The notes under the pieces: generated by a model
What the model was told of the DNA's origin: nothing
Databases searched by the model: none
The model's input: only the letters and a program-made list of their open reading frames with translations
Shown here: positions 9,775 through 26,860 of the stretch, piece after piece
Layout of the letters: each line of letters starts with the position of its first letter
Numbering within the stretch: the first letter of the stretch is position 1
Position numbers and translations under genes: made by a program
IMG/VR virus record: IMGVR_UViG_3300025415_000010
Location: 1 to 27,570 of that record
DNA: 27,570 bases
DNA from: a virus
Direction: 5' to 3' (one strand)

Positions 9775-10055
9775 TTTTTCTTACCTTTCTTTTTTTCTGT
9801 TTCACGTTGTACGGCATATCCAATCGCTTCAGCTTGCTTGGGTGGCTTGCCGGCGCGAATTTCCTTGGCTATGTTTTCTGAACGTGTCTTGTTGCTAGTA
9901 CCTTTTTTCAATGGCATATCTTTTTCCTTTCGGGTGGTTGCTTTACGTACTTGTGGGCGCTTTTTAGGTGTTTCAAGTGGAAAATCAATTACTTTTGTAT
10001 CTTCCGCATACTTTTCAGCTTCGGATTTAAACCAGTTCAGTATTTTTTTCAGCAT
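9771..10055 (-). CDS. Small basic protein with a possible second in-frame start
   Basis: 94 residues, very Lys/Arg-rich. The ATG at 10055 has GGAAG 6 nt upstream and lies within the end of the GroES-like gene. A second in-frame ATG at 9917 has an even better Shine-Dalgarno (AAAGGA, 7-8 nt away). It would give a 48-residue product starting MPLKKGTSNKTRSENIAKEI, which looks like a free-standing small phage protein family. The long form adds a helix plus a linker. It ends ETEKKKGKKK. A nucleic-acid-binding role is possible from charge alone; function unknown. Confidence 0.68.
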   Translation of the reverse strand: MLKKILNWFKSEAEKYAEDTKVIDFPLETPKKRPQVRKATTRKEKDMPLKKGTSNKTRSENIAKEIRAGKPPKQAEAIGYAVQRETEKKKGKKK

Positions 10056-10374
10056 AATCTTCTTCCGTTAAGAAACATACGTCTTGCCAGGACATAATAA
10101 GATAACGTTCATCGTTAGTAAAGTATTCTTGAAATTTAAGATATTCATCTTGGGCGTTTTTACTCATAGTTCCAAATCGAACATGGTCGCCAACATTAAC
10201 TGGCATGGCTTCACGGCGGCCATTGACCTTCTTACCAGGTCCTACGGCTACTACGGTACCCATATTGTCTGCTTCTTTGTTTTCAACAATGATTACAGAA
10301 CTCAAAATGCGTTTATCAGGGCGTACAACGATTTTCTCACCCATCGGTTTTAATATAAAATCTACATCAGCCAT
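10027..10374 (-). CDS. Phage GroES-like co-chaperonin (Cpn10 family)
   Basis: 115 residues, slightly longer than the 97 of E. coli GroES. The Cpn10 pattern is clear: KPMGEKIVVRPDK at the N-terminus, a region in the mobile-loop place with VIIVEN (residues 27-32; E. coli uses IVL there to bind GroEL), then GTVVAVGPGKKVNGRR and VNVGDHVRFGTM, and a closing strand YLIMSWQDVCFL. AAGGAG 5 nt upstream of the ATG predicts strong translation. Such proteins cap host GroEL, as T4 gp31 does for its coat protein. Its place just upstream of packaging and head genes, with a P22-type coat whose family needs GroEL/ES, supports a role in coat folding. It may instead replace or compete with host GroES. Confidence 0.85.
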   Translation of the reverse strand: MADVDFILKPMGEKIVVRPDKRILSSVIIVENKEADNMGTVVAVGPGKKVNGRREAMPVNVGDHVRFGTMSKNAQDEYLKFQEYFTNDERYLIMSWQDVCFLTEEDYAEKNTELV

Positions 10375-10442: not shown

Positions 10443-10670
10443 TTAATCTGCGTAATAATTTGGGTCTGTTGGTGCTTGACTGCCTGAACCAGCGGTAAAT
10501 GAAATGTCTTTGCCGCTTTGCATCGACTTGTCATTCCACGGCGTTGCTTTAGCCTTTTGGACTTGCATTGCCCGTTGTGCATCTTTAACGTATGCGCTGG
10601 TCTTTAATAAGTCCCCCAAGCTAGTTTGATTACTAGATGAGGGATTTAGATTGGCAGTAAACCCAGCCAT
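10443..10670 (-). CDS. Small protein sharing its N-terminus with the 477-residue internal protein
   Basis: 75 residues. It starts MAGFTANLNPSSSNQTSLGD, nearly the same pattern as MAEFTADLNPKNTNQMTLGD at the start of the protein at 26860-25427, about 15 kb away. The similarity covers roughly 25 residues (FTAxLNPxxxNQxxLGDxxK). The rest is polar and probably disordered (SGKDISFTAGSGSQAPTDPN). It lies 3 nt after the preceding gene's stop. Because its relative looks like a virion internal protein, it may be a minor virion component; this is inference from the shared start. Confidence 0.68.
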   Translation of the reverse strand: MAGFTANLNPSSSNQTSLGDLLKTSAYVKDAQRAMQVQKAKATPWNDKSMQSGKDISFTAGSGSQAPTDPNYYAD

Positions 10671-10672
10671 AA

Positions 10673-11029
10673 TTACATATCGTCTTGGTCGTGGCCAGCG
10701 CGCTTATGGTCATAGCATACGGATTCACCAGTATTGCCATGATTAAACTCACCTAAACGGCCATCGTGTTTGCCCATGTGCATTTCACGACCGCCCATTC
10801 CATCTTCCATACCAAGGGCTACGCCACCAGCAAATGATTTTGCATGACGTTCGCCAGTTGTATCGCTTGATGTTGCGCCTTTAGGAATCTTTTCACCAGT
10901 AGCGCCAGGCATAAATTTTGTAGAATTTACGCCAGTTTCACGTGGTTCACGTTTTTCGCCTGTACGGTCGCTTGATTTAACACCTTTTGGAAAGCGTTCG
11001 CCGCTTTCACCTTTCATACCATAACCCAT
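10673..11029 (-). CDS. Small hydrophilic protein with duplicated GE-PKG-SSD-TGE motif
   Basis: 118 residues, Gly/Lys/Glu-rich with no hydrophobic core. An AAGGA Shine-Dalgarno precedes the ATG. It contains two copies of a roughly 19-residue unit, GERFPKGVKSSDRTGEKR and GEKIPKGATSSDTTGERH, with about 27 residues between repeat starts. The C-terminal half is rich in Met/His/Gly (GMEDGMGGREMHMGKHDGR). The repeats and composition suggest an intrinsically disordered protein, perhaps nucleic-acid or metal associated, packaged or acting in assembly. No family is recognised. Confidence 0.68.
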   Translation of the reverse strand: MGYGMKGESGERFPKGVKSSDRTGEKREPRETGVNSTKFMPGATGEKIPKGATSSDTTGERHAKSFAGGVALGMEDGMGGREMHMGKHDGRLGEFNHGNTGESVCYDHKRAGHDQDDM

Positions 11030-11083: not shown

Positions 11084-11272
11084 TTAATTATTATTTTTGT
11101 CAATGTCTTTGCGAATTTCTTCAGGCAAACCCATGTGATGTTCATAACCAAAGTTTTCAGGCAATCCTTCCGGATAAGCCAATCCAAGATAATTTTCTAA
11201 CGTTGTTGGAATACCGTGCTTTTTCATTGATTCAAGCACGTAATCGTGTTCATTGTTTCCATTCAGGTTCAT
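11084..11272 (-). CDS. Small conserved-type phage protein
   Basis: 62 residues with a textbook GGAGGA Shine-Dalgarno 5 nt before the ATG, located inside the end of the 534-residue gene (23-nt overlap). The sequence is acidic with the pattern SMKKHGIPTTLENYLGLAYP and GLPEEIRKDID. This Leu/Pro-spaced pattern is familiar from many small unnamed phage proteins. Function unknown. The strong ribosome site implies it is made in larger amounts than the upstream gene, whose own start lacks a Shine-Dalgarno. Confidence 0.72.
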   Translation of the reverse strand: MNLNGNNEHDYVLESMKKHGIPTTLENYLGLAYPEGLPENFGYEHHMGLPEEIRKDIDKNNN

Positions 11273-12854
11273 TTATTCCTCCAGCTTTTTCAAATACTTG
11301 TTTTCTAGCTTCATCAGCGGATATATTGCCTTTTTTATGGTTTAACCATATTTTATCAATTTCTTCAACATTTTTGGCATTTTTAAATGTATCAGGGAAT
11401 AAACCGCGAACTGCTTCCCATGTAATAGATTGCATTTCTCTAGGTAATACGCCACGTTCTTTTGCGGCACGTTGATAAGCTTCGTGATACAACGGGTAAG
11501 TGCCTTGCGAACCAGTAAATGCGCTATTTTTAGGGCCAACTTCACCCAATACATTGCTACCAAAATTGTGTGCTACTTCCCTAGATGCGCCGGACAATGG
11601 GCGTAACAATCCAGCGGCTACGGCATGGGTGTCAATGGTTGTATGACCTTGTGGGTTTTCAGGGTCATAAATGTTCATATAAAAATTACGAACTTTATGT
11701 TGGCCGCCTAAATTTTTACTAATGTTTTCTTTAGTTGGGTTTTCATAAATGTTTACGCCTTTAGCAATTTCATTTAATGAACCCCAGCCAGTTTTGTATG
11801 GTTCACCTTTTCCGGTCAATCTAACGCCCGAATAATCGCCTTCAGGGTTAACAATAAAATGTTCTCTAGGATTATGTGCCTGGTCATGGGTTCTAATCCA
11901 CATAGCTTTTTCTACTGGGTCTGACAACTCACCCAATGTTTTGCCTTCAATTGCTTTAACCATTGGCGCATATTGCGGTTTATTCCATATTTCTTTAGCA
12001 ATATTAGACATTTCAGGCGACCAGGATGTTCCTTGATGGTTTTTCATGGCGCTAATTAAACGTTCACCTAAAGATACGTTCATAAACCAATCTTTTTGTG
12101 GTGATAAAACGGCCAATACTCCTGAAGCCGCTTGGTCAGGAACCCCATATTCTTTACCGAACTTGTCCACAATGTTTCGGGCGCCGTTATACCAAAGTTT
12201 GCTACGTTCTCTAGTGTCTGCCGGCACCGCATCATGTAAATAAAGCAAGTTGTCTTTTACATGATTAATAAACTTTTCTGCATTTACATCTACGTTTTTA
12301 GACTTTAATCCAATATTTGGATAGTCTTTTAGCAATTCAACGTTGTGTTTAAAAGCTTCAGGTTCTTTTTTAGCCGCTTCATAATTGGAAAATAAATGTT
12401 CTGTAATTGGATTTTCCGTTGCTTTTACGGCGGTTGGAACTCTAGTGCTAACTGCGTGTTCTGCGGCGGTTACTGGCTTAATACTTAATCCAACCGGTAA
12501 ACCTTTAGTTATTTCTGCGGTTTTCCCTAATGCTGGTGCGGCCATAGCGGCCACATCAAAAGTAGGTTCAAAACGTCCTGATTTCCATATATCAGCACGG
12601 TTTCCACCGGTTTTTACTATATCGGATGGGTTTCTTACTGGATAATCGCCTTGGCCCCATCGCTGAACTTCTTCCGGAGCCTGGCATAATAAAAAGTCGC
12701 CTAATTGGGTTCCACCAATTAATGGAACTTGGTCTTTTACGTAATATTGATTGGCATATGTTTTAGCGGCATTGAGCAATTCCCCAATTTTTGCAACGTT
12801 GGGATTAACGGTTGGTATTGGGCCTACCGTGCCTAGTTCATAATCATCAGCCAT
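11250..12854 (-). CDS. Large protein with an uncharacterised enzyme-like domain
   Basis: 534 residues. Residues 45-75 (PLIGGTQLGDFLLCQAPEEV, RWGQGDYPVRN) resemble the start of large phage 'polyvalent' or ejected proteins. From about 170 onward lies a conserved-looking domain: KLWYNGARN (219-227), VLAVLSPQKDWFMNVSLGERL (from 247), KVRNFYMNIYDP (387-398) and TTIDTHAVAAGLLRPLSG (405-422). The ordered LSP-W-N and TIDTHA blocks resemble an uncharacterised phage domain (I believe DUF7178-like) with a helix-hairpin-helix-glycosylase flavour, which I cannot confirm. The start MADDYE echoes MADDIE of the peptidase-bearing virion protein at 25427. No Shine-Dalgarno precedes the ATG. It could be an ejected enzyme or a DNA-metabolism protein; its neighbour upstream is RusA-like. 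Confidence 0.72.
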   Translation of the reverse strand: MADDYELGTVGPIPTVNPNVAKIGELLNAAKTYANQYYVKDQVPLIGGTQLGDFLLCQAPEEVQRWGQGDYPVRNPSDIVKTGGNRADIWKSGRFEPTFDVAAMAAPALGKTAEITKGLPVGLSIKPVTAAEHAVSTRVPTAVKATENPITEHLFSNYEAAKKEPEAFKHNVELLKDYPNIGLKSKNVDVNAEKFINHVKDNLLYLHDAVPADTRERSKLWYNGARNIVDKFGKEYGVPDQAASGVLAVLSPQKDWFMNVSLGERLISAMKNHQGTSWSPEMSNIAKEIWNKPQYAPMVKAIEGKTLGELSDPVEKAMWIRTHDQAHNPREHFIVNPEGDYSGVRLTGKGEPYKTGWGSLNEIAKGVNIYENPTKENISKNLGGQHKVRNFYMNIYDPENPQGHTTIDTHAVAAGLLRPLSGASREVAHNFGSNVLGEVGPKNSAFTGSQGTYPLYHEAYQRAAKERGVLPREMQSITWEAVRGLFPDTFKNAKNVEEIDKIWLNHKKGNISADEARKQVFEKAGGINEPEWKQ

Positions 12855-12862
12855 GATTAATT

Positions 12863-13207
12863 TTATATGACTTCAATCAATACATCAACGCCGCCACCCT
12901 TACGAATTTCACCACGATTAATCATAAGTACATCAATCTGTCCGTCATTGTCATAAACGCCGGCATCTTCTAAACCGTCTAAAACGGCTTTCAAACGATT
13001 ATCTAGGTCTGTGACTACCTTTGACCGTGGATATAAAAATAATGTCACTTCAAGGCGTTTGGTGCCAAATTTGGGTATGTTTTGCGCTACGACACATTCT
13101 GCCACCGCAGTTTTAAATTCGCGCCCAGCTTTGCTTAATACTGTATGGCCACGAAAATTGCGCCAGTACGTGTTAACACTAGGTGGGTATGGCAATTTAA
13201 TTATCAT
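12863..13207 (-). CDS. rusA: RusA-like Holliday junction resolvase
   Basis: 114 residues, close to the 120 of RusA. The N-terminal substrate-binding pattern PYPPSVNTYWR (residues 6-16) and the catalytic core TDLDNRLKAVLDGLEDAGVY (66-85) with D67, D69 and the following DNDGQ acidic group are family hallmarks. RusA dimers cut four-way junctions symmetrically. In phages they resolve recombination intermediates or clear branched DNA before packaging. The start overlaps the HNH gene by 11 nt, and it is the last gene of a three-nuclease cluster. Confidence 0.92.
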   Translation of the reverse strand: MIIKLPYPPSVNTYWRNFRGHTVLSKAGREFKTAVAECVVAQNIPKFGTKRLEVTLFLYPRSKVVTDLDNRLKAVLDGLEDAGVYDNDGQIDVLMINRGEIRKGGGVDVLIEVI

Positions 13208-16179: not shown

Positions 16180-16749
16180 TCACATATTTCCCCATTGGTC
16201 AGCCATTGCATCAGCAATTCCTTGATAAGTTGTGCTTCTTAATTTCCAACGGTCTGCGCTGGGCGGCAATTTATGCAAACGTTGTTCACGTCCTTCAACA
16301 ATATTTGTTGGTTGTAATTCCGGCAAACCTTTTAACCATAAGCAAGTAGCTTTAGTTTCACCATGCCCAAACATCCAAGGTTTAATAATTTGATTTTGCC
16401 GCCTACCAATGATTTCTACGGCGTATTTGTGCATTATTGGATTTTCAATTGCAAATTTAGGAATGTTGCAATCTAACAATTTTTTAAAAAAATTAGCACC
16501 ATCACGCATTTTGTCCCAACGGCCTTCTTGCTTATAAAGCCATGAAACGCCTGAATTACACAAATAAGTGCATGGTGGATGGGCTACCATCAAATCCCAG
16601 CCATCATTAATAATGTCAAAAATATTGCCTTGGTAATGCGGCCCTTCGGCATCAGAAGGCAATAAATCACAACTCATAGCTTCGTGCCCCCCCCCGATGA
16701 ACGCATCACGTACACGTCCTGAATACTCACAAGCTACTAAAACTTTCAT
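16180..16749 (-). CDS. DNA cytosine methyltransferase-like protein
   Basis: 189 residues, short for a C5-methyltransferase but typical of a phage family with the pattern VLVACEYSGRVRDAF (motif I-like, residues 3-17), DLMVAHPPCTYL with the catalytic-type Pro-Cys at 59-60, and FAIENP at about 99-104 (motif VI-like). The C-terminal part has PWMFGHGETKATCLWLKGLP and ends IADAMADQWGNM. It may modify phage DNA against host restriction; the specificity is unknown and a full target-recognition domain is not evident. The start overlaps the HTH gene stop as ATGA. A run of nine Gs encodes three consecutive glycines at codons 19-21. Confidence 0.82.
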   Translation of the reverse strand: MKVLVACEYSGRVRDAFIGGGHEAMSCDLLPSDAEGPHYQGNIFDIINDGWDLMVAHPPCTYLCNSGVSWLYKQEGRWDKMRDGANFFKKLLDCNIPKFAIENPIMHKYAVEIIGRRQNQIIKPWMFGHGETKATCLWLKGLPELQPTNIVEGREQRLHKLPPSADRWKLRSTTYQGIADAMADQWGNM

Positions 16750-23465: not shown

Positions 23466-25427
23466 TTATTTCCTAGAAGTTATTTCGCTTAATTTTGTTT
23501 TAGCGGCTTGTTTGGCTTCAACTGCTTTTCTAGCAACTTGGCCGCCCTTGTACATTAATTCGCCCATTACACGTGGGCTTTGGAATGGAAGTGCTAATCC
23601 TGATAATGGGGTTACATCGCCTGATAAAACGCGCCCAGTTGTATAAAGTGCGTTCATTCCCAATGCTGGGCCAGCTAAACCGGATGGGTGCCATTCTTTT
23701 AATGATTGACCAGCTAATGCTTCCATTAAGTTTTGGTTGCCTGATTCAGCCAATTGACGTGTTAATTCACGTCTAAATTCATTACCCATAGTGGATGTTG
23801 GACCCATCATGGTTTTAAGGCGGCGCAATGTAAGGTCAACAGAAGCTTTTGGACCAAGGCCTAAAGATTTTTCAATTTCACGTTCTGTGGCTAAAGCTTC
23901 TTCATATTCGCCCATTGTTTTTTCGTAATTTTTGTCTTGTTTGACAATAGTTTCTTTGACTTTATTGCGAGTATTGGTAAGAACACGTTTAGCTTGACTG
24001 GTCATTCCTTGACTATAAACATCATCAATACGTTGTTTAAGGTCATCCAATCCACCGGCAGTATGAAGTTCAGGTTTGTTTTCCCATTCATCCAAAATGC
24101 CTTTAATTTCATTAACTTTGGACATTGTTTCAGGACCAACTTTAGAAGCTTCTACGCCACCAACACCCCTAGATTTAAGGGTTTCAAGTGTCTTATTAAA
24201 TTCTTCACGAATAGGTTTGAAATCCAAAAATACTTGATTGCCTTTGGTGGTTGCAATACCTTCTTTATAAGCTTCGCTACGTGCATGACGTGTGTTTTCT
24301 AAAGCAGAACGGAATTGCTCAACCAAATCAGCCGGCGACCTATTGCCACGCATATTTTCAGCAAGTTCTGAAACTGTACGTGGATTGGCATAACCTGAAC
24401 GTGCGGCTTCACGCAATACTTCACCGCTTTTATCAATAGGAATACCCATTACATCAGTTGCAATGTTTCCAATGGTTCCGGCTTTTACATTGCGGCCTAC
24501 TGCACCACCAACGCTAGATATTGCATTGCCAGTTTTTTCAGCAGTTTTTGCAACCATGCTACCTAATGGTGTTCTGACTGCAAATTCAGGGTCATAAATT
24601 GCGCCTTTTAACGTTTCGCCAGCAAAACGCCCAGGGTTTTCATAAATATTTTTGGCAACATTAGCAATTGATTCACTAGGATGTTCTGCAAAAGATTTAA
24701 CGCCTTGTTTAGCGGCTTCGTATTTTGCAAGCAGATTGGCTTCAGCTTCTTTTTTCATAGCTTCATCGCCAATTATCGGCATACTGCCAGCGGTATAAGC
24801 TATTATCGGTGCGGCCAAACTTTTTTGTTTCCAATCTTCCATTGACATTTCATGCAATGGTTTTTTAAATTCTTCAAACCAATTTTTTGGTTTTTCGTAA
24901 TTTTGGTCAACAAATTTTAGCCCTGGAATTTCAATGTCATCGCCGGTATTTGGTTCTACTTTTGATTCGTATGGCAAATCAGGATTAATTTGTACGTGAA
25001 CTGGGTCTTTAGCGCCATGTGGACGATGTAAACCAACTTCTGCAAGCAATGAATCAGGGACACGTGGATGAATGTCCACGGCATCGCCTTTTTCATGACG
25101 ACTTTTACCTGGTTCAGCTACTAAATTAGGGTTTTTTAAACGGTTCTTATATTCTTCACGTTGTTGTTCTAGGGTTCTATAACCGCTAGTAATAGGCAAA
25201 TCTTCGCCTTTAGGATTTAATTCTTTATTGCTTTTCCAAAGGTCTTTAAGTTGATTTACTCGGTCAAGCAAATCCGGTTGTAGATTTGCAGTATCAACCG
25301 GCGCTTTAGTAGTAGATATTGGTTTTGCATTGTCATAAATGCTTGGCGCACCTACGCTAACAGTAACGGAAGGTGCGGCATCAGCGCCTAAGAATTTTAG
25401 TCCAGGGACTTCAATATCATCAGCCAT
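23466..25427 (-). CDS. Virion internal/ejection-type protein with an M15 peptidase domain
   Basis: 653 residues with GGAAAG about 8 nt before the ATG, which overlaps the previous stop (TAATG). Residues 75-150 hold an M15 DD-carboxypeptidase/endopeptidase: ITSGYRTLEQQREEY, then SRHEKGDAVDIHP with H111 and D118 as zinc ligands and DPVHVQINP with H144 as the third. DDIEVPGLKF (3-12) recurs as DDIEIPGLKF (163-172), exactly bracketing that domain. The rest is helical and long, as in ejected internal proteins (P22 gp16/gp20 type). It may digest peptidoglycan during DNA entry. Confidence 0.85.
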   Translation of the reverse strand: MADDIEVPGLKFLGADAAPSVTVSVGAPSIYDNAKPISTTKAPVDTANLQPDLLDRVNQLKDLWKSNKELNPKGEDLPITSGYRTLEQQREEYKNRLKNPNLVAEPGKSRHEKGDAVDIHPRVPDSLLAEVGLHRPHGAKDPVHVQINPDLPYESKVEPNTGDDIEIPGLKFVDQNYEKPKNWFEEFKKPLHEMSMEDWKQKSLAAPIIAYTAGSMPIIGDEAMKKEAEANLLAKYEAAKQGVKSFAEHPSESIANVAKNIYENPGRFAGETLKGAIYDPEFAVRTPLGSMVAKTAEKTGNAISSVGGAVGRNVKAGTIGNIATDVMGIPIDKSGEVLREAARSGYANPRTVSELAENMRGNRSPADLVEQFRSALENTRHARSEAYKEGIATTKGNQVFLDFKPIREEFNKTLETLKSRGVGGVEASKVGPETMSKVNEIKGILDEWENKPELHTAGGLDDLKQRIDDVYSQGMTSQAKRVLTNTRNKVKETIVKQDKNYEKTMGEYEEALATEREIEKSLGLGPKASVDLTLRRLKTMMGPTSTMGNEFRRELTRQLAESGNQNLMEALAGQSLKEWHPSGLAGPALGMNALYTTGRVLSGDVTPLSGLALPFQSPRVMGELMYKGGQVARKAVEAKQAAKTKLSEITSRK

Positions 25428-26860
25428 TATCTAAACTTTCCTTGCTCTAAAGCATGAAGATTTGACCATTTACGGTTGAAATCTTCACGTTGGTCTTTAG
25501 GAATACTAGCGTAAATTTCGTTTGCTTTGGCTTTTGCTTCAGGTGAATTAGAAGCGGCCAAAGCATCAATTTGGGCCATACGAACATCATAGTTATCAAC
25601 CCAAGCAGATTTAAGTTTTTCTGCTTGAATGTAACCATTGACACCACGTTTTTCAATAAGCTTGTTGTAGGCGCTATTAAACATAGTAGCGGCCTTAACA
25701 GTAGCATCTGCACGGGAAACAATGTCAGTTAATGCTTGTGCGGTTAAATCATCGCTACCATTAATAACTTTGGCATCTGCACGGGATTGGTCAGTTTTAG
25801 CAGTTCCCATAACTTCAGAAGCCGCGGCCATACGTGCAATGTTTTTATTTAACATTTCTTGTGTTGCATTGCCAATAATGTATTTTCCACCTTGACGTAA
25901 CAATTGACCTGGGCGGTTTCCTGAAGCGGCAGAAATGTTTTCCATAACGCCACGTGTATTGGCTTCTTGTTCTTTAGCGGCAGAAGCAAGTGCATTGCTT
26001 TCTTTAAGCAAGTTTTTACCATTATCCAAAGCTTCTTTTTGCTCTGTTGTATAGTTTGCAAGGGCTGGATTGCCTTTGTAATCAAGATATTGGTCATACT
26101 TAATAAGGTCACGGTCTTTAGCACTTGGTTTAGGTGTTTCAGTTGCGCCACCACCACCAACGGCATTTTGACCGCCACCAAATTCAACCGGAGTAATTTT
26201 AGGTTGTTCACCGGTCATAGATGGAGTACGTACAACTGGACGTTGTGCGCCACCAATAGTAGCGGTTTCAGCTTTAGGTGCAAATTGGTCAATTAACTGG
26301 GTTGGTGTTAATGATTCATTACGTGCTTTTAACAAGGACTGTGGGTCAACTGGATGGTCTGACGGATAAGCTTTCCAACCTTTAATTTGACCATCTGCCG
26401 CTTTTGTTAATTGTGGATAGTATTGTTTTAAAGTTTCCAAAGAATTAATAATGTCTGTTGGATTAACTTTTTGACCATTTGCGGCCATTTGTCCATAAGA
26501 ACCATAAACAGAAGCAAACGGCTTTCTGTTGCTTTCTGAAAGTTCATTTAAAGCTTTATTGGTTTCAATATGATTTTTAGTCAAACTGATAATTTTGTCG
26601 GCATATTCAGGACCGGACATTGGCGCTACTGAAATTAATGCTGGAACTTGCTCTAAATCAAAAGAACCGTCAGGAAGCTTATTTGCTGGGTCTTTTGCCC
26701 ATTGCTGAATAATTGGCATTTCTTTAGTCTTTTGTTCTGCCATTTGCGCTTGACGTTGTGCAATAGCAGTTTCGGCCGAATAAAGGCCTACTTTCATCAT
26801 GTCCCCAAGGGTCATTTGATTAGTATTTTTTGGGTTTAAATCCGCAGTAAATTCAGCCAT
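25427..26860 (-). CDS. Virion internal/ejection-type protein
   Basis: 477 residues with AGGAAA 8 nt before the ATG. The start MAEFTADLNPKNTNQMTLGD is shared with the 75-residue gene at 10670. The protein is long, helical and rich in Ala/Gln/Lys, with a Gly-rich middle (GGGQNAVGGGGATETPKP) and a helical C-terminal half (KSAWVDNYDVRMAQIDALAA). It lies between another ejection-type gene and the peptidase gene, matching the three-gene ejection blocks of P22-like phages (gp7, gp20, gp16). The function is inferred from position and composition. Confidence 0.78.
   Translation of the reverse strand: MAEFTADLNPKNTNQMTLGDMMKVGLYSAETAIAQRQAQMAEQKTKEMPIIQQWAKDPANKLPDGSFDLEQVPALISVAPMSGPEYADKIISLTKNHIETNKALNELSESNRKPFASVYGSYGQMAANGQKVNPTDIINSLETLKQYYPQLTKAADGQIKGWKAYPSDHPVDPQSLLKARNESLTPTQLIDQFAPKAETATIGGAQRPVVRTPSMTGEQPKITPVEFGGGQNAVGGGGATETPKPSAKDRDLIKYDQYLDYKGNPALANYTTEQKEALDNGKNLLKESNALASAAKEQEANTRGVMENISAASGNRPGQLLRQGGKYIIGNATQEMLNKNIARMAAASEVMGTAKTDQSRADAKVINGSDDLTAQALTDIVSRADATVKAATMFNSAYNKLIEKRGVNGYIQAEKLKSAWVDNYDVRMAQIDALAASNSPEAKAKANEIYASIPKDQREDFNRKWSNLHALEQGKFR

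Follow-up and report, generated by a model that had tools for sequence, protein, structure and literature searches.

P0001, a 534-residue protein of a freshwater phage, is rather likely to be an OGG-like base-excision enzyme, probably borne in the virion and reaching the cell with the DNA. The phage is represented by an IMG/VR virus record, 27,570 bases long, the whole of which was analysed (the window), and it is a P22-like podovirus with portal, coat and scaffold proteins. P0001 belongs to DUF7178 (PF23802; phrog_3842), to which Pfam, PHROGs and NCBIfam assign no function. By model and sequence register, it appears closest in fold and pocket to the 8-oxoguanine DNA glycosylases OGG2, AGOG and OGG1.

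P0001 and the DUF7178 family

The first-pass annotation had placed an open reading frame of this length at 11250-12854, which was borne out with the minus strand as the coding strand; the plus strand over the same interval was full of stops. Hmmscan analysis showed DUF7178 as the sole recognisable domain of P0001, at 81.5 bits (E 1e-22) against a curated Pfam cut-off of 27 bits, and phrog_3842 matched at E 6e-22. Serine-protease-inhibitor matches from a PDB sequence search (E 0.18) were taken as chance. The parts of the gene were as follows.

11250-12854, minus strand: P0001, DUF7178 protein of 534 residues (ATG start; PF23802 and phrog_3842 matches)
12459-12854, minus strand: N-terminal region, residues 1-132, homologous to the N-terminal regions of ejection-cassette DUF7178 proteins (phmmer/BLAST)
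11385-12266, minus strand: DUF7178 domain, predicted HhH-GPD-like glycosylase, about residues 197-490, interrupted by an insert (hmmscan, A2-profile match, AlphaFold2 model of 133-534)
11778-11978, minus strand: insert of roughly 70-95 residues (about 293-359); the A2 profile covers 198-292 and 360-483 only

Four motifs that had been picked out by eye were present in the order claimed: KLWYNGARN (219-227), VLAVLSPQKDW (246-256), KVRNFYMNI (387-395) and TTIDTHAVAAG (405-415). They are not chance patterns, because invariant residues of DUF7178 fall in them, and they were unchanged in 28 representatives with less than 90% mutual identity.

Close relatives of P0001 were found in at least 206 viral stretches among the viral contigs searched, and the DUF7178 profile scan matched at least 589. 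Bacterial copies were rare (12 loci in a GTDB-based collection; 2 of 299 genomes of one phylum), and at least one of them, L099, adjoined phage structural genes. The family takes two forms: a stand-alone protein of about 190-210 residues, and the P0001 type, in which the domain bears an insert, missing from the compact proteins, and lies within a longer protein. Stand-alone members were carried by SIO1 (gp9), cyanophages and Celeribacter, Mycobacterium, Streptomyces and Microbacterium phages, and depositors had named some of them “N-glycosylase/DNA lyase” or “glycosylase”. Large relatives also bore ART-PolyVal, LPD22, LPD38, RadC or methyltransferase domains, and two or more disparate domains, as in polyvalent proteins, were found in L084, L086, L095, L098, L102 and L104. 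Among the large proteins, one of about 2,050 residues from Virus Rctr197k (L085:3041-4820) had two tandem DUF7178 domains; one viral-contig scan queried with the Rctr197k copy gave zero matches. The 2,872-residue protein of L095, on a Pseudofulvimonas gallinarii contig, combined the domain with GGDEF and RadC and carried Arg for the pocket Trp (QSITR); it is perhaps a decaying prophage copy.

Predicted fold and active-site pocket

The HhH-GPD fold is a helical bundle with a helix-hairpin-helix ahead of the catalytic Asp. The AlphaFold2 model of P0001 residues 133-534, built with 27 relatives (pLDDT 85.9, pTM 0.86), was all-helical save for two short strands. When this core was compared with the PDB by Foldseek, the match of top probability was AGOG (1xqp, 0.33) and the other listed matches had 0.06 or less, with E-values short of significance; the insert and extra loops are the probable cause. 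A compact stand-alone homologue of the S-CBP42 type got round this difficulty. Its model, from 41 sequences, had pLDDT 96.2 and pTM 0.91, and its best 16 matches were all 8-oxoguanine DNA glycosylases (AGOG, archaeal and Thermotoga OGG2, and mammalian OGG1), with E 0.0042 to 0.44, probability 0.87-1.00 and query TM-scores of 0.48-0.60. The first seven had probability 1.00 and TM-scores of 0.54-0.60, and the first unrelated match had probability 0.06. No PDB match of the P0001 core or the compact model reached E 0.001, so that the argument for the fold depends on how coherent the list is and on the pocket residues. The predicted compact structure had the arrangement of an HhH-GPD protein: helices 108-115 and 118-127 flanked a short turn, and D137 capped the next helix. 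The hairpin of DUF7178 was shortened, and a canonical LPGVG was not recognisable from sequence.

PF00730 (HhH-GPD) matched neither P0001 at E<=1 nor any of six compact homologues at E<=10, and PDB sequence searches with P0001, A2 and A3 and an NCBIfam search gave no usable match. Hhalign against endonuclease III/MutY profiles placed the Lys and Asp in register at a low HHalign probability (8-16%), with a score of 26.5 against a decoy maximum of 24.4 and 150 of 150 column shuffles beaten. A scan of 149 genomes of one phylum with PF22175 (Ogg-HhH) gave zero matches over the cut-off, and the weak matches resembled endonuclease III.

Members of the HhH-GPD superfamily share a catalytic Asp, which in bifunctional members is accompanied by a Lys at a spacing of about 18-21. 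Both residues were found in nearly all DUF7178 members, mostly 17-21 apart. In hOGG1, K249 and D268 are catalytic, the base is stacked between C253 (Lys+4) and F319, Q315, four residues before F319, reads the guanine edge, and H270 (Asp+2) touches a phosphate (PMC3397491, PMC4207560). AGOG has Phe at the place of C253, OGG2 and AGOG have Asp/Trp at the places of Q315/F319, and CacOGG1 has Trp at the place of H270 (PMC3397491, PMC4207560). The pocket of P0001 was matched to these enzymes by sequence register rather than coordinate superposition, and gave the following residues.

11694-11696, minus strand: K387, predicted catalytic Lys (hOGG1 K249, AGOG K140); invariant, in hhalign register
11682-11684, minus strand: F391, predicted base stacker at Lys+4 (hOGG1 C253; Phe in AGOG); invariant
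11631-11633, minus strand: D408, predicted catalytic Asp (hOGG1 D268, AGOG D172); invariant
11625-11627, minus strand: H410, His at Asp+2 (hOGG1 H270, phosphate contact); His family-wide, Trp in two actinophage members
11430-11432, minus strand: Q475, predicted contact to the guanine Watson-Crick face (hOGG1 Q315); invariant
11418-11420, minus strand: W479, predicted stacker at Gln+4 (hOGG1 F319; Trp in OGG2/AGOG); invariant in A1, A2 and A3, Arg in L095
12078-12104, minus strand: SPxxxWxxN loop, S251-P252, W256 and N259; conserved

Thus F391, H410, Q475 and W479 occupy the positions of the OGG base pocket (a stacker at Lys+4, His/Trp at Asp+2, Gln/Asp, and an aromatic residue four further on). 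The equivalents in the compact form were K119, F123, D137, H139, Q184 and W188, the two numberings being linked by profile alignment. The complete signature with the SPxxxWxxN loop was present in 290 of 296 distinct DUF7178 sequences; four of the six misses ended at a sequence or contig edge, and two were genuine substitutions in large relatives. The two actinophage members with Trp at Asp+2 resembled CacOGG1 in this respect.

Compared with AGOG and OGG2 (PDB 1xqp, 3knt, 3fhg, 3n0u), DUF7178 has a similar predicted fold, the catalytic Lys and Asp, the Phe at Lys+4 of AGOG and the Trp at the stacking position of both. In contrast, identity in structural alignments was 9-17%, the HhH hairpin is shortened, Gln stands where OGG2/AGOG carry Asp, and P0001 adds the insert and an N-terminal extension. 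With OGG1 it shares the Gln-x3-aromatic pair (Q315/F319), Lys, Asp and the His at Asp+2, whereas it lacks the N-terminal beta-sheet A-domain and has Phe for Cys253 and Trp for Phe319. The pocket residues were also present in the stand-alone members SIO1 gp9 (Roseobacter phage), Synechococcus phages S-CBP42 and S-CRES3 gp63 (“N-glycosylase/DNA lyase”) and Mycobacterium phage DroogsArmy gp83 (“glycosylase”), which unlike P0001 are separate non-structural genes outside an ejection context.

Taken on model and sequence, P0001 is very probably an HhH-GPD-type enzyme. The glycosylase flavour suggested at first reading was well supported by the fold and the active-site residues, and a purely structural fold was not what emerged from structure prediction and fold search. 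The HhH segment and the SPxxxWxxN loop of P0001 would make the DNA contacts, and a base that is damaged or modified would be flipped out; guanine, oxidised or modified in another way, is the most likely target. F391 and W479 would clasp the flipped base from either side and Q475 would read its Watson-Crick edge; K387 and D408 would cleave the glycosidic bond, and nicking of the abasic site is possible. The preference for guanine is predicted because Q475 matches the guanine-reading position of OGG1, and by this register a guanine lesion as the substrate has about an even chance. No DUF7178 counterpart was identified for the OGG readers of the oxidised N7-H (Gly42, C-terminal Lys or Gln31); the invariant W221-Y222 is a candidate only.

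Gene setting and probable delivery with the DNA

The DUF7178 gene lay in a T7-like ejection cassette at 79 of 108 distinct viral loci, in the order tail tubular proteins (TTPB), gp14-like, gp15-like, DUF7178, gp16-like and fibre. Most relatives are thereby comparable to T7 gp14-gp15-gp16 and P22 gp7-gp20-gp16, although no homology of DUF7178 to any of these was detected and it forms an extra member ahead of the gp16-like gene. A window-like class (19/108) had RusA upstream and/or a small ORF, a GroES-like gene or terminase downstream; a few of its loci had terminase alone in common with the window. Locus L184, outside both classes, had terminase and portal upstream. In L147, the gene that follows DUF7178 matched the internal virion protein phrog_6651, and in phage CRP-738 the domain was part of gp40, between portal and coat protein. 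Large relatives with ART-PolyVal, LPD22, LPD38 and RadC resembled, also in their late-gene context, the polyvalent multidomain phage proteins that have been interpreted as injected (Iyer 2017, PMC5512222); P0001 differs in having one recognisable domain. From the cassette position in most relatives and these architectures, DUF7178 proteins across the family probably enter the host with the phage DNA. In the SIO1-like phages and the T7-like cyanophages, the gene stood alone in a group of small genes upstream of those for replication or RNA polymerase, which suggests early expression.

A packaging motif common to DUF7178 and the adjoining ejection proteins was sought and is not claimed, the pattern occurring in 49 of 108 DUF7178 N-termini and 2 of 68 gp16-like ones. 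At L129-L164, N-termini of both proteins were often acidic and Pro-rich, and a short hydrophobic (V/I)(Q/L)(V/L)A(G/A) segment came next; a looser signal common to both could be looked for.

In the window phage and its close kin, the DUF7178 gene lay between the RusA and terminase genes, and the ejection genes of the window were elsewhere.

12863-13207, minus strand: RusA-like resolvase (PF05866, E 2.7e-13), immediately upstream of P0001
23466-27556, minus strand: P22-like ejection trio of 228, 477 and 653 residues (phrog_598; position; VanY)
10443-10670, minus strand: ORF of 75 residues, of which the first 49 or so match the 477-residue ejection-type protein (BLASTP, E 3e-10, 47%)

The 228-residue trio protein matched phrog_598, “DNA ejection” (E 1.3e-12), the 653-residue protein had a VanY peptidase domain (E 3.2e-6), and the 477-residue protein (25427-26860, minus strand) was assigned to the ejection type from position alone. 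The 75-residue ORF, two genes downstream of P0001, might represent a virion-incorporation or docking segment present as a separate copy, and the 49 residues in common hint at virion links for this stretch of genes. Other neighbours were a 118-residue ORF (10673-11029, minus strand) with internal GExxPKGxxSSDxTGE repeats, which was kept beside the DUF7178 gene in window-type phages and matched nothing in Pfam or PHROGs; a GroES-like co-chaperonin just upstream of the packaging genes (10027-10374, minus strand; PF00166, E 9.7e-11); and a DNA methyltransferase-like protein of 189 residues (16180-16749, minus strand; phrog_757, E 1.3e-60).

The N-terminus of P0001 had been likened to large ejected phage proteins. 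This held for other phages, where homologues were found near the N-termini of several ejection-cassette proteins (31-38% identity); it did not hold for the ejection proteins of the window itself, against which the best E was 0.14. All 17 phmmer matches of the N-terminal 130 or so residues were DUF7178 proteins. The tree grouped the ejection-type sequences in a single clade (support 100/100); within it, the four window-type sequences fell among sequences with genes in T7-like cassettes. The first-pass annotation had also called the gene virion-associated, which finds good support in the family; the window gene itself lies outside the ejection trio, and for this reason its packaging is inferred from kinship, that is, N-terminal homology. 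On these sequence grounds, incorporation of P0001 at virion assembly and its entry into the cell with the DNA are somewhat favoured for the window phage.

Alternative roles and meaning

The gene setting also bears on a less probable reading, in which P0001 is never packaged and works inside the cell as a late or DNA-metabolism protein in recombination or repair. RusA, upstream on the P0001 strand, is separated from the gene by 8 bp, and past it comes a RecA-dependent nuclease; the arrangement recurs in window-type loci, and the stand-alone members are non-structural genes; against this, the closest relatives outside the window-type clade lie in the ejection cassette and have the N-terminus partly in common. 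That the fold and DNA binding were kept merely for an internal virion scaffold, with catalysis lost, is very improbable. Most relatives do have the gene among structural ejection genes, and the pocket Trp was lost in the bacterial-genome copy L095, but the Lys, Asp, His, Gln and Trp were kept in nearly all relatives, even in stand-alone proteins at about 30-45% identity, and a scaffold would have no need of pocket residues.

If P0001 is a delivered glycosylase, its target could be the incoming phage DNA (repair) or the host DNA (early takeover), both of which fit equally. An enzyme of this class might instead attack: it would strip normal or host-specific modified bases from host DNA, leaving abasic sites that disable the host genome or a modification-based defence. 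Such an attack is consistent with delivery alongside the DNA, with the upstream setting of the stand-alone genes in SIO1-like phages and T7-like cyanophages, and with the ART, RadC and methyltransferase domains that accompany DUF7178 in polyvalent relatives. It is nonetheless rather unlikely, as the phage's own DNA would then need protection in that cell and the pocket matches a lesion-specific repair family. Tentatively, freshwater and marine podoviruses may inject a guanine-directed glycosylase, either for pre-replication repair of oxidised bases acquired during exposure of the virion or, as a counter-defence, for excision of modified guanine from the DNA of the host.

The HhH-GPD fold family and the glycosylase names of some stand-alone members were known already. 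The literature searched, which excluded most subscription papers, mentioned DUF7178 nowhere and described no glycosylase within an ejection protein, and the main text of PMC5512222 does not contain the word “glycosylase”; an ejection protein containing an OGG-like enzyme appears unreported in that literature. With this proposal, a common phage family found in at least 589 viral stretches, SIO1 gp9 included, acquires a function that can be tested. If it is true, base excision would be added to the set of enzymes believed to accompany phage DNA into the cell (lysozymes, ADP-ribosyltransferases and methylases), and since the enzyme is also stand-alone in other phage lineages, phages would have two routes to its early possession. 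Bacterial glycosylase defences against phage have recently been described (e.g. PMC13160076), and a co-injected base-excision enzyme would be their reverse. Repair of phage DNA on entry would then become a directly testable question.
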